Positions 608 through 11,449 of a DNA stretch of 32,177 bases are shown one piece after another. Position 1 is the first letter of the stretch. Each line of letters begins with the position of its first letter. The DNA is taken from positions 1-32,177 of the forward strand of contig JAJYFT010000014.1 in the NCBI GenBank assembly GCA_021790815.1. Reading direction: 5' to 3'. The notes under the pieces were generated by a model, which saw only the letters and a list, made by a program, of their open reading frames with translations, made no database searches and was not told the DNA's origin. The position numbers were made by a program, and so were the translations under genes. Source of the stretch: Actinomycetes bacterium (GTDB lineage Bacteria; Actinomycetota; Acidimicrobiia; Acidimicrobiales; JABEUL01).

Positions 608-1735
608 ATGGGATCGATTCGACGAGCACCACGAAATTTAAGTCGTTGGGAGGCAAGATACAGGGATTTAAGTGGGAAGCAACGCACAAAAACTTTCGAT
701 TCACGATCTTCGGCGAAAGCCTGGCTTGCTTCTAACGAGACATTAATGCAGACCGGCGCCTGGATTGATCCTCGCTTTCAAAGTATCAAGATCTCTAAAG
801 TAGCTTCAGAGTGGCTCTCGTCAGATCATAGAAAACGTGATGGATCTGTTGCGCGTGATAATAGCATTCTGACTAATCATATCTTGCCCGAAATTGGCGG
901 ACGGGCAATTGGTGGTATATCGAGAAGCAATGTCCAAGCTCTGGTGGATAAGTGGTCACTCAACTCTGCTCCATCAACTGTCCAACGCCAATATGCCTGC
1001 CTGCGAGGTCTTTTCTCTTTTGCTTAAAGAACCGATCTTATTTCTCGCTCGCCTTGCCAATCGATCAGGCTTCCGGAGTTTTTCCCTCGTGATTCTATTA
1101 TCTTGAATAAGGAGCAGCTTGAAGTTTTTTTCAACTCAATGGGTGAACATGGCCCAATGGTTTATTTAGCTGTAATGGGCTTGCGTTGGGGAGAAATCGC
1201 AGGGCTCAGGGTAAAGTCGCTCAATTTCGACGGCGAAACAGTTGCTATTATCATTCAGCGCACTCGTGGCTCTAAGGGCTCGATGGTTGAACAAGTTCCA
1301 AAGACTCGTAATAGCCGACGAATACTTAGTCTTCCGGCGTGGTTGATGGTAATGCTCAAGAACAGTCTTCAACAAAGAAACGTGCTGGGGGATGGTGATG
1401 CATTAGTATTTGTCTCGCCGTTGGGTGAGCCATTGCATTATTCGAATTGGAGAAGACGAATTTGGTTGAAAGCCTCTTCTGAAGTTGGTCTGTTGAATTT
1501 AACTTTTCATGATTTAAAACACACTGCGGCAACTACCCTTGTTGAGGAAGGTGTAGATATTAAAACAGCTCAGCAACGTCTCGGACATGCTAACCCTCAA
1601 ACGACTTTGCGCGTTTACGCTCAAGTCACCTCAAAAGCAGACAAAGCTGCCGCAAAAATAGTCGGAGACCGTCTGGGTCCAACCTCAATGGAGATAAGAG
1701 AAGCGCTAAAAGATCCCGGATTGAACACGGAATAA
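608..1735 (+). pseudogene. Tyrosine recombinase (phage-type integrase), interrupted by an in-frame stop
   Basis: The frame from ATG 608 encodes an N-terminal arm-binding domain (IRRAPRNLSRWEARYRD), then a SAM-like core-binding domain, and stops at TAA 1025-1027 (codon 140). The same frame continues without any shift (RTDLISRSPC...) into the catalytic domain, open to 1735. About 375 codons in all is a usual phage-integrase length. Catalytic residues visible are Arg193 (GLRWGEIAGLR), His301, His327 (RLGHANP) and Tyr337 (RVYAQV). The usual HxxR motif reads HDLKH, so the second Arg is Lys304. One nonsense codon in otherwise intact sequence suggests recent inactivation. TTG 1103 could restart a catalytic-domain-only protein. 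The gene points at the 3' end of tRNA-Ile, a common integration target. Confidence 0.85.
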
Positions 1736-6412: not shown

Positions 6413-6787
6413 TTATTTGTTGAAAATTTCAGGTGTGTTCTCATTCTTTATAGCCTTTTGGTTTGTTTTTACGAAAACCGTCTTTATTGATCCAGGGCAC
6501 CCTTCGCCTAGAACGCTTTGAAGCACCCCCAGTAGTGCTTTTTTCTCGTATTTGCTCACGGCAAAGGCGTGTTGGTCGTTTGTTTCTAATATAAGTGTGT
6601 TGTTCTCTATTTTAACCGGGTTAAAATGTTGCCAAAGGTCTTTTTTTTCAAGATCATCCCATTTTGAAAATAGTACCGAGAACGTTTCATACCCAGTGAG
6701 TCCGAACTGTTTTATAAGCTCGTTTAATGAGCTTTTAATAACGTGAATATCTTGAAAATCGTAATTTTTTATCTTGTCGTCCGTGTC
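6413..6787 (-). CDS. dciA: DciA/DUF721-family protein, no canonical start codon
   Basis: The minus-strand frame from the stop at 6788-6790 down to TAA 6413-6415 is open for 124 codons. It reads as a DUF721/DciA protein: DIHVIKSSLNELIKQFGL, then LWQHFNPVKIENNTLIL and a C-terminal KTVFVKT strand. DciA homologues interact with the replicative helicase, and the gene sits between recF and gyrB as in other actinobacteria (Rv0004 in M. tuberculosis). No ATG, GTG or TTG precedes the conserved part; the first in-frame GTG is far inside. Candidates are ACG, ATA or ATT near 6784-6740. An ATG at 6839 in another frame gives only eight codons. So this is either a non-standard start, a 5' disruption or a sequence error. 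The family call is fairly sure; functionality is not. Confidence 0.72.
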   Translation of the reverse strand, partial: DTDDKIKNYDFQDIHVIKSSLNELIKQFGLTGYETFSVLFSKWDDLEKKDLWQHFNPVKIENNTLILETNDQHAFAVSKYEKKALLGVLQSVLGEGCPGSIKTVFVKTNQKAIKNENTPEIFNK

Positions 6788-6871
6788 TTATATTTTATCG
6801 CGGATTTGTTTGCTAGATCCGTTTTTGTAATTTAGTCATTTAGCAAACTTCGTTAGACGCTTATTGTTTTG

Positions 6872-7936
6872 TTAAATTACCTCTTCAAAAAAAATGTTAT
6901 TTGTAGAGTTTGATGGCGCTATTGGTGCCGTAGATGTAATTAACGTCTGTGACCCATTCGTAATTTCAAGAATTTTTAATACTCTTTCTTTGTCCAATTC
7001 GCTGGTTAAATCATCGAGTAAAAGAATTGGTTGATCTTTAAAATCATCTAATAAAATCTCATAACACGAAAGAATTAGAGAAATTGCTATACTTCGTTGT
7101 TCTCCTCTTGACGCCATACTTCTTGCGTCTCTGTTTTCTATGGTAATTTTTAAATCATCTCTATGGGGACCAACCGTGGTCATCCCTTTTTTAATGTCTT
7201 CTTGCTGCGCCTTTAGTAGTGCATCCGAATATGGCAACTTGGCACTTAGTTCATAGTCAAGATTCACCCTATCGTTTGTTGCGCTGATTGTTTTATAAAG
7301 GCTACAAACTTTTTCATTTAACTTATTAATTAAAGCTATACGCTCGTGAATAATGAGCTCTCCAGATGGAGCAAGTCTGTCATTCCACACGGTAAGTGTT
7401 GACTTATCATCTTCTTTTAACCTACCCCCAATCTGTTTTAGCAAAATATTTCTTTGCCTCAAGGCTTTATTGAAATAATTAAGGTGATAATTTAAAGTTG
7501 GTTTAAGGGATAGTAAACTTTTATCTAGAAACTCTCTTCTTTTTTCGGCTGGTCCTGAAACGAGGAGTGAGTCTCTTGTTGTAAATAATACGGTTTTAAT
7601 TAGATCGTCTTTTAAGCCATCTCGTTCCAAAAGTATTCTTGGTTCTCTATTAAATGCCATTTTCTCTTTTACAATTTTAACTTTTCCATTAAAAGTTGTG
7701 TCTTTATAGCGGGCTTCACCAATAACTAGGGCTTCGTTTTCGTCTGACATTAAGAGAGCACCCCTAGGAGTACCTGGGAACGTCTCACCCTTTAGTAAAA
7801 GTTCAATTGCTTCAAGAACCGTTGTTTTACCTATACCATTTTTCCCGTAAATAACTGTTGGGGTGCTGCTAGGAAATTGGAGTTTTAATGATTTTATGGA
7901 GCGTAGGTTTTTAATTACAATAAACTCAATATTCAT
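6872..7936 (-). CDS. recF: DNA replication and repair protein RecF
   Basis: RecF is an SMC/ABC-like ATPase that helps load RecA at gaps through RecFOR. At 354 residues it is close to the usual 360-370. Walker A is YGKNGIGKTTVLEAIE at about 31-46. The family motif GPHRDDLKI, the ABC signature region (SRGEQRSIAISL) and Walker B with the D-loop (ILLLDDLTSELDKER) all follow in order. The N-terminal IKNLRSIKSLKLQF is typical. It begins 12 bp after dnaN, so the two are probably co-transcribed. Confidence 0.96.
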   Translation of the reverse strand: MNIEFIVIKNLRSIKSLKLQFPSSTPTVIYGKNGIGKTTVLEAIELLLKGETFPGTPRGALLMSDENEALVIGEARYKDTTFNGKVKIVKEKMAFNREPRILLERDGLKDDLIKTVLFTTRDSLLVSGPAEKRREFLDKSLLSLKPTLNYHLNYFNKALRQRNILLKQIGGRLKEDDKSTLTVWNDRLAPSGELIIHERIALINKLNEKVCSLYKTISATNDRVNLDYELSAKLPYSDALLKAQQEDIKKGMTTVGPHRDDLKITIENRDARSMASRGEQRSIAISLILSCYEILLDDFKDQPILLLDDLTSELDKERVLKILEITNGSQTLITSTAPIAPSNSTNNIFFEEVI

Positions 7937-10943: not shown

Positions 10944-11078
10944 ATGAAGAGAACGTTTCAACCAAATAACAGAAAAAGAGCTAAAAAACACGGGTTTAGA
11001 CATAGAATGTCTACTAGAGCGGGAAGAATTATTTTAAAGACCAGGAGAAACAAAGGGCGGCAAAGATTGTCGGCCTGA
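10944..11078 (+). CDS. rpmH: 50S ribosomal protein bL34
   Basis: A 44-residue, strongly basic protein starting [19 protein letters not shown] and ending [11 protein letters not shown], which is the diagnostic pattern of bL34, a small protein of the large ribosomal subunit. AAGGAAA lies just upstream of the ATG. It opens the conserved rpmH-rnpA-yidD-yidC-jag-rsmG run, diverging from dnaA. Its TGA overlaps the likely rnpA start. Confidence 0.97.
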
Positions 11079-11449
11079 AAGGCTCAAGAAAGCAAATTCC
11101 CAACAAAGAGGCTTTTTTTAGGTTTAAAAAGTCGAAATATACTGCAAAAGTAGGATCAGTGAGAGTAGTCTATGTTGATTGTGCTAATGAAGTAAGAGTT
11201 GGTTTTGCGGTCGGAAAGAAAATCGGCGGAGCTGTGAAGAGAAACCGATTAAAAAGGCGTTTGCGAGAAATTATCAGACAAGTTAGCTCTGATGAAAAAA
11301 ATGGAAATTACCTAATAATTCCATCAAAAAAGAGCATAGATACTATTTTTAGTGAGCTAAAAAGTGAGGTTTATAAAGCTATGAATTTAGCCCATGAATC
11401 TTATAACAATGATAAGAACAATTGCGACACACGAGATACGAAGCGATGA
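11075..11449 (+). CDS. rnpA: Ribonuclease P protein component
   Basis: This is the protein subunit of RNase P, which helps the RNA subunit cut tRNA 5' leaders. The signature [24 protein letters not shown] is clear (the RNR motif). The only ordinary in-frame start is GTG 11159, which would remove about 28 residues, including [13 protein letters not shown], the segment corresponding to the conserved F..vF+.G.r region. I therefore extend upstream to CTG 11075, which overlaps the rpmH stop as CTGA and gives 124 residues, the usual RnpA size. ATT 11096 is another candidate. The TGA overlaps the yidD ATG. Confidence 0.88.

Follow-up and report, generated by a model that had tools for sequence, protein, structure and literature searches.

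In Escherichia coli, very few near-cognate start codons are known (those of infC and pcnB). DciA (DUF721, PF05258) is the ancestral loader of the replicative DnaB helicase. It is essential in Mycobacterium (PMC5720831) and in Pseudomonas (PMC5109545), and in most phyla its gene lies between recF and gyrB (PMC5109545). Near-cognate starts have been described as rare: infC starts with ATT in E. coli or with ATC in Streptomyces and is autoregulated by IF3, and Streptomyces sigR starts with GTC and is repressed by IF3 (PMC5472188). Since gene prediction generally assumes ATG, GTG or TTG (PMC5472188), genes with near-cognate starts can be lost or truncated in annotation.

The sequence-only reading of the window (the whole stretch of 32,177 nucleotides analysed here) had proposed a DciA-like frame of 124 codons between recF and gyrB, preceded by a TAA and lacking an ATG, GTG or TTG before the conserved part. 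Frame, place, lineage profile and fold bear out the first point, and our reading of the frame confirms the second. The features of the region are as follows.

6872..7936, minus strand: recF, upstream neighbour of dciA
6813..6839, minus strand: ATG-led frame of 8 codons (MTKLQKRI) in another phase, with no sign of function
6788..6790, minus strand: in-frame TAA closing the dciA frame upstream
6413..6787, minus strand: dciA (DUF721) open frame, 124 codons plus TAA, with no ATG, GTG or TTG before 6559
6782..6784, minus strand: ACG, alternative putative start of dciA, no Shine-Dalgarno (SD) sequence
6770..6772, minus strand: ATA, likeliest putative start of dciA, with a weak SD-like GGA at -10..-8
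6746..6748, minus strand: ATT, less likely putative start of dciA, at the edge of the first helix
4372..6342, minus strand: gyrB, downstream neighbour of dciA

The dciA frame extends from 6787 to 6416 and ends in the stop codon TAA 6415-6413; a spacer of 84 bases separates recF from dciA. ATG, GTG and TTG are absent before codon 77, the earliest being GTG 6559, from which 48 residues of DciA would be left. The near-cognate codons ACG 6784-6782, ATA 6772-6770 and ATT 6748-6746 are located 15, 11 and 3 codons ahead of the DciA domain, respectively. At the codon frequencies of the MAG (ATG, GTG and TTG together 4.25%), all three canonical codons would be absent by chance from approximately 4% of 76-codon coding stretches. 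The oddity of dciA is the absence of a canonical start in a conserved gene, not the absence as such. The short ATG-led frame reported at 6839 is real: it opens with ATG 6839-6837 and is terminated after 8 codons by TAG 6815-6813. A perfect 8-base inverted repeat, GTTTGCTA/TAGCAAAC (window 6848-6808, minus strand), flanks it. We rejected a structured dciA leader, as the leader folds no better than shuffled sequences (fold z -0.05).

Our analysis revealed that the frame is a real DciA, as judged by profile, fold model and place. Its match to Pfam PF05258 (E 3e-4, 21.3 bits) falls below the cut-off of 24; a lineage profile of 77 Acidimicrobiia relatives, built with the target gene excluded, matches residues 18-102 with 48 bits (E 3e-15 among the frames of the window), and a profile of 50 sequences with the target included matches the solved DciA domain of D. 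radiodurans, 7ykm (E 1.6e-12). The AlphaFold model (pLDDT 80, both ends less certain) adopts the KH-like fold of the DUF721 domain. DciA chains take the top three places among the Foldseek matches of this model (E 3e-3 to 7e-3, probability 1.00), the best being V. cholerae and D. radiodurans DciA. The gene is placed between recF and gyrB within the dnaA-dnaN-recF-gyrB-gyrA cluster. DnaB is present in the MAG, and a second DciA was not found there. The MAG also encodes a full-length IstB/DnaC-type AAA protein (G000:C165:447-1151), which is probably an IS21 helper; IstB proteins are common helpers of IS21 transposition.

GyrB relatives place the target MAG as a low-G+C (~41%) member of the Acidimicrobiales. 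A canonical start is located between the upstream stop and the DciA domain in 77 of the 78 genomes that have the gene, the target genome being the sole exception, and most low-G+C relatives have it 7-18 codons ahead of the domain. In five other genomes of the same GTDB family, dciA has an ATG or GTG start where one is expected. In the target genome, near-cognate codons stand where homologues begin, namely ATA (11 codons) and ACG (15 codons) ahead of the domain. Since all 77 comparable relatives have a canonical dciA start, this comparison of sequences suggests that the start was probably lost on the branch to the target genome. RecF identity within the family is only 31-39%, so that no relative is close enough to test the dciA codon itself; the GyrB search gave 80 relatives, the best 78% identical, none close enough for this purpose either. 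A RecF search of genome contigs found no match, and a search of viral contigs for the dciA start region found none. The earlier reading had regarded a clean ATG in sister genomes as grounds for rejecting its own observation. Such starts do occur at the family level; however, they show the ancestral state and not an error here, because the DciA proteins are only ~20-25% identical.

The initiator tRNA is ordinary, with a CAU anticodon and three G-C pairs, and IF3 is present in the MAG. An initiator tRNA with a CGU anticodon reading ACG was considered and rejected, since the sole initiator-type anticodon stem found carries CAU; tRNA-Thr(CGU) looks like an ordinary elongator. Genome-wide use of the SD sequence is weak (mean -3.7 at starts versus -2.4 at random sites), and a rough count of starts in the MAG gave 521 ATG, 283 TTG and 250 GTG. 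The weak SD use and the common TTG and GTG starts fit a relaxed choice of start codon.

We surveyed 1.51 Mb of the MAG, scoring 1146 coding frames that have a closed 5' end, and found further genes that show homology at the family level but lack a canonical start before the conserved part. This list rests partly on the reading of N-termini, the ROK and MFS genes being the least certain.

tlyA: TAA AAA ACG GTT CGG CGT CGT; no canonical codon until 107 codons in
pth: TAA AAA ACG TCT
TrmH/RlmB-type methyltransferase (rlmB-like): GAA CTA ACG GTT
ROK kinase: ATC or ACG, ATC in the better context
dapE: AAAGGAGCATTAA-ATT, an SD sequence and ATT
PRK07208-family flavoprotein: AGGTGAGTTTAA-ATT, an SD sequence and ATT
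MFS gene: less certain
infC: AAGGAGGTTGCCTA-ATC, ATC behind a strong SD sequence
11075..11449, plus strand: rnpA, a further gene of the window that lacks a usable canonical start, with CTG 11075-11077 as the probable one

The putative CTG of rnpA overlaps the rpmH stop TGA 11076-11078 as CTGA. In the rnpA frame (11018-11449, plus strand), the Pfam match opens at residue 29, which corresponds to profile position 9, and the first canonical codon, GTG 11159, would cut into this match. infC is located at L109 (the start of contig G000:C34), where ATC stands behind AAGGAGGT, as in Streptomyces. A coding frame of 337 codons at L116:1200-2213 (minus strand) belongs to no known family and has its first canonical start 52 codons in; it may represent another near-cognate start. 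ligA was rejected as a start-less gene, as a normal ATG is present. Within the window, a tyrosine-recombinase-like integrase lies in two frames at 608-1735 (plus strand; 608-1027 and 1103-1735) beside tRNA-Ile 1820-1897, and is perhaps a broken integrase belonging to an old element. We also rejected the idea that ACG is the organism's single special start: ATT is indicated by dapE and the PRK07208-family gene, ATC by infC and CTG by rnpA, and in the ROK gene ATC is the codon in better context. These differing codons are therefore better explained by near-cognates in general than by ACG alone.

Sister genomes show the same feature. tlyA has no canonical start before its S4 domain in five of the five family genomes that carry it, which are independent MAGs.

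L187:13156-13968 and L259-L262: tlyA loci without a canonical start

The putative tlyA start is ACG in the target MAG, CTG or ACG in G001 and G003, ATT in G002, and ATA in G005; in G001 and G003, the CTG overlaps the stop of the preceding gene. In both G001 and G003, a CTG behind GAGGA is the probable start of pth, and CTG is also the probable start of the rlmB-like gene in G001. For dapE, the relatives with a readable 5' end have ordinary starts. As a broader control across the Acidimicrobiia, target included, 70 of 72 recF, 83 of 83 gyrB, 78 of 78 gyrA and 62 of 62 dnaN frames have a canonical start. The two recF exceptions, L060 and L062, are similar low-G+C Acidimicrobiia loci upstream of gyrB that share a CTG behind GGTGAG, at which, judging from the sequence, recF probably starts. 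Codon counts at overlapping gene junctions carry too much noise for any excess of ATA or CTG to be seen. In our survey, which was confined to this order, the frequency of near-cognate starts seems to be of the order of 1%. Relaxed start choice may be a trait of the family, a proposal that we hold tentatively, with about 1% of genes (dciA, tlyA, pth, rnpA and dapE among them) starting at ACG, ATA, ATT or CTG, the codon drifting between genera, and perhaps a low, IF3-sensitive output. It is possible, to the same tentative degree, that replication, translation and cell-wall genes of this Acidimicrobiales family are among those affected.

We consider it likely that an intact dciA is translated from a near-cognate codon, its canonical start having been lost on this branch as part of a wider tolerance in the family. 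The ancestral ATG or GTG would have been lost and the gene kept at a presumably low initiation rate. Translation would begin at ATA 6772-6770, which takes about half of the probability, or else at ACG 6784-6782 or ATT 6748-6746, the ordinary initiator tRNA(CAU) reading the codon. Length and the weak SD sequence favour ATA as the candidate (-3.2 kcal/mol, versus +0.3 for ACG), and both codons have precedent since tlyA has a putative ACG in the target MAG and a putative ATA in G005. dciA would thus be one case of a wider near-cognate tolerance in the family. IF3 would hold down the dciA start and hence its output, by analogy with infC and sigR (PMC5472188); as IF3 represses the starts of those two genes, the amount of DciA made might track that of IF3. 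Several points stand against a near-cognate start: the canonical starts of 77 of 77 relatives, the weakness of the SD sequence at ATA and the lack of one at ACG, two changed conserved spots, and the modest coding score described below.

Of the three options offered by the earlier reading, the rare start gained ground, as genes of the same MAG and of sister genomes likewise lack canonical starts, while frameshift and gene loss did not. An error in the MAG consensus, or a strain difference, in which a single wrong base masks a normal ATG or GTG start (for example at 6772-6770), is unlikely. ATA and ACG are each one base off ATG, and every relative has a canonical dciA start; however, the remainder of the dciA frame is clean, and several unrelated genes of the MAG show the same absence. 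For tlyA, it recurs in independent MAGs, and therefore base errors are unlikely as a general cause. That dciA is a young pseudogene, or a fading gene whose role has been assumed by another loader, appears quite improbable. Its start is lost, its coding score, although positive, is modest (14th percentile when set against gene pieces of equal length), two spots conserved in relatives are altered (the VG that follows the first Trp, and the second Trp itself), and the IstB/DnaC-type AAA protein is encoded elsewhere in the MAG. In contrast, the gene has no stop or frameshift across 124 codons, and DciA evolves in step with RecF (median DciA/RecF tree-distance ratio 1.45 for pairs with the target genome versus 1.54 for other pairs). 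The open frame, the ratio resembling that of relatives, and the intact fold model oppose gene loss, and dciA shows little sign of decay. The common role of IstB proteins in IS21 transposition argues against a replacement loader, as does the essentiality of DciA in Mycobacterium (PMC5720831) and Pseudomonas (PMC5109545).

The existence of ATG 6839, and the fact that recF and dciA share a frame, would allow dciA to be read by frameshift or re-initiation from that ATG or by read-through from recF. This is very improbable: the frame of ATG 6839 closes after 8 codons, 28 bases short of the first near-cognate, and read-through would need to get past three stops, namely the recF TAA, TGA 6838 and TAA 6790. 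The DciA proteins of the family start at the domain, relatives beginning 7-18 codons before it, where the near-cognates stand, and the unremarkable folding of the leader offers no help. Initiation at the internal GTG 6559, the earliest canonical codon of the frame, is scarcely credible, since the 48-residue product would be missing the two N-terminal helices of the fold along with its first two strands, and the part upstream of the GTG is conserved. Translation of an intact dciA from a near-cognate codon is the reading that we prefer.

An essential replication gene may be scored absent through an assumption about start codons. The tlyA gene, non-canonical across several genera with a changing codon, offers a natural test of the limits to which start fidelity can be relaxed, and the lineage is also a natural test of whether IF3 couples the translation state to replication.

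The gene shares with known DciA proteins the recF-gyrB place, the match to lineage profiles, the KH-like fold, and the best structural matches in V. cholerae and D. radiodurans; it differs from them in lacking an ATG, GTG or TTG start, in scoring below the Pfam cut-off, and in the replacement of the second conserved Trp region. Like infC, dciA here is a conserved gene with a putative near-cognate start, and the MAG's own infC has ATC behind a strong SD sequence; in contrast, the infC codon is conserved across bacteria and serves feedback, whereas that of dciA has so far been seen only in the target genome and has no strong SD sequence. Like Streptomyces sigR, it is an actinobacterial gene with a non-canonical start, putative here, of a kind that annotation misplaces, although gene and codon differ and the sigR start was shown experimentally, while that of dciA is read from the sequence.
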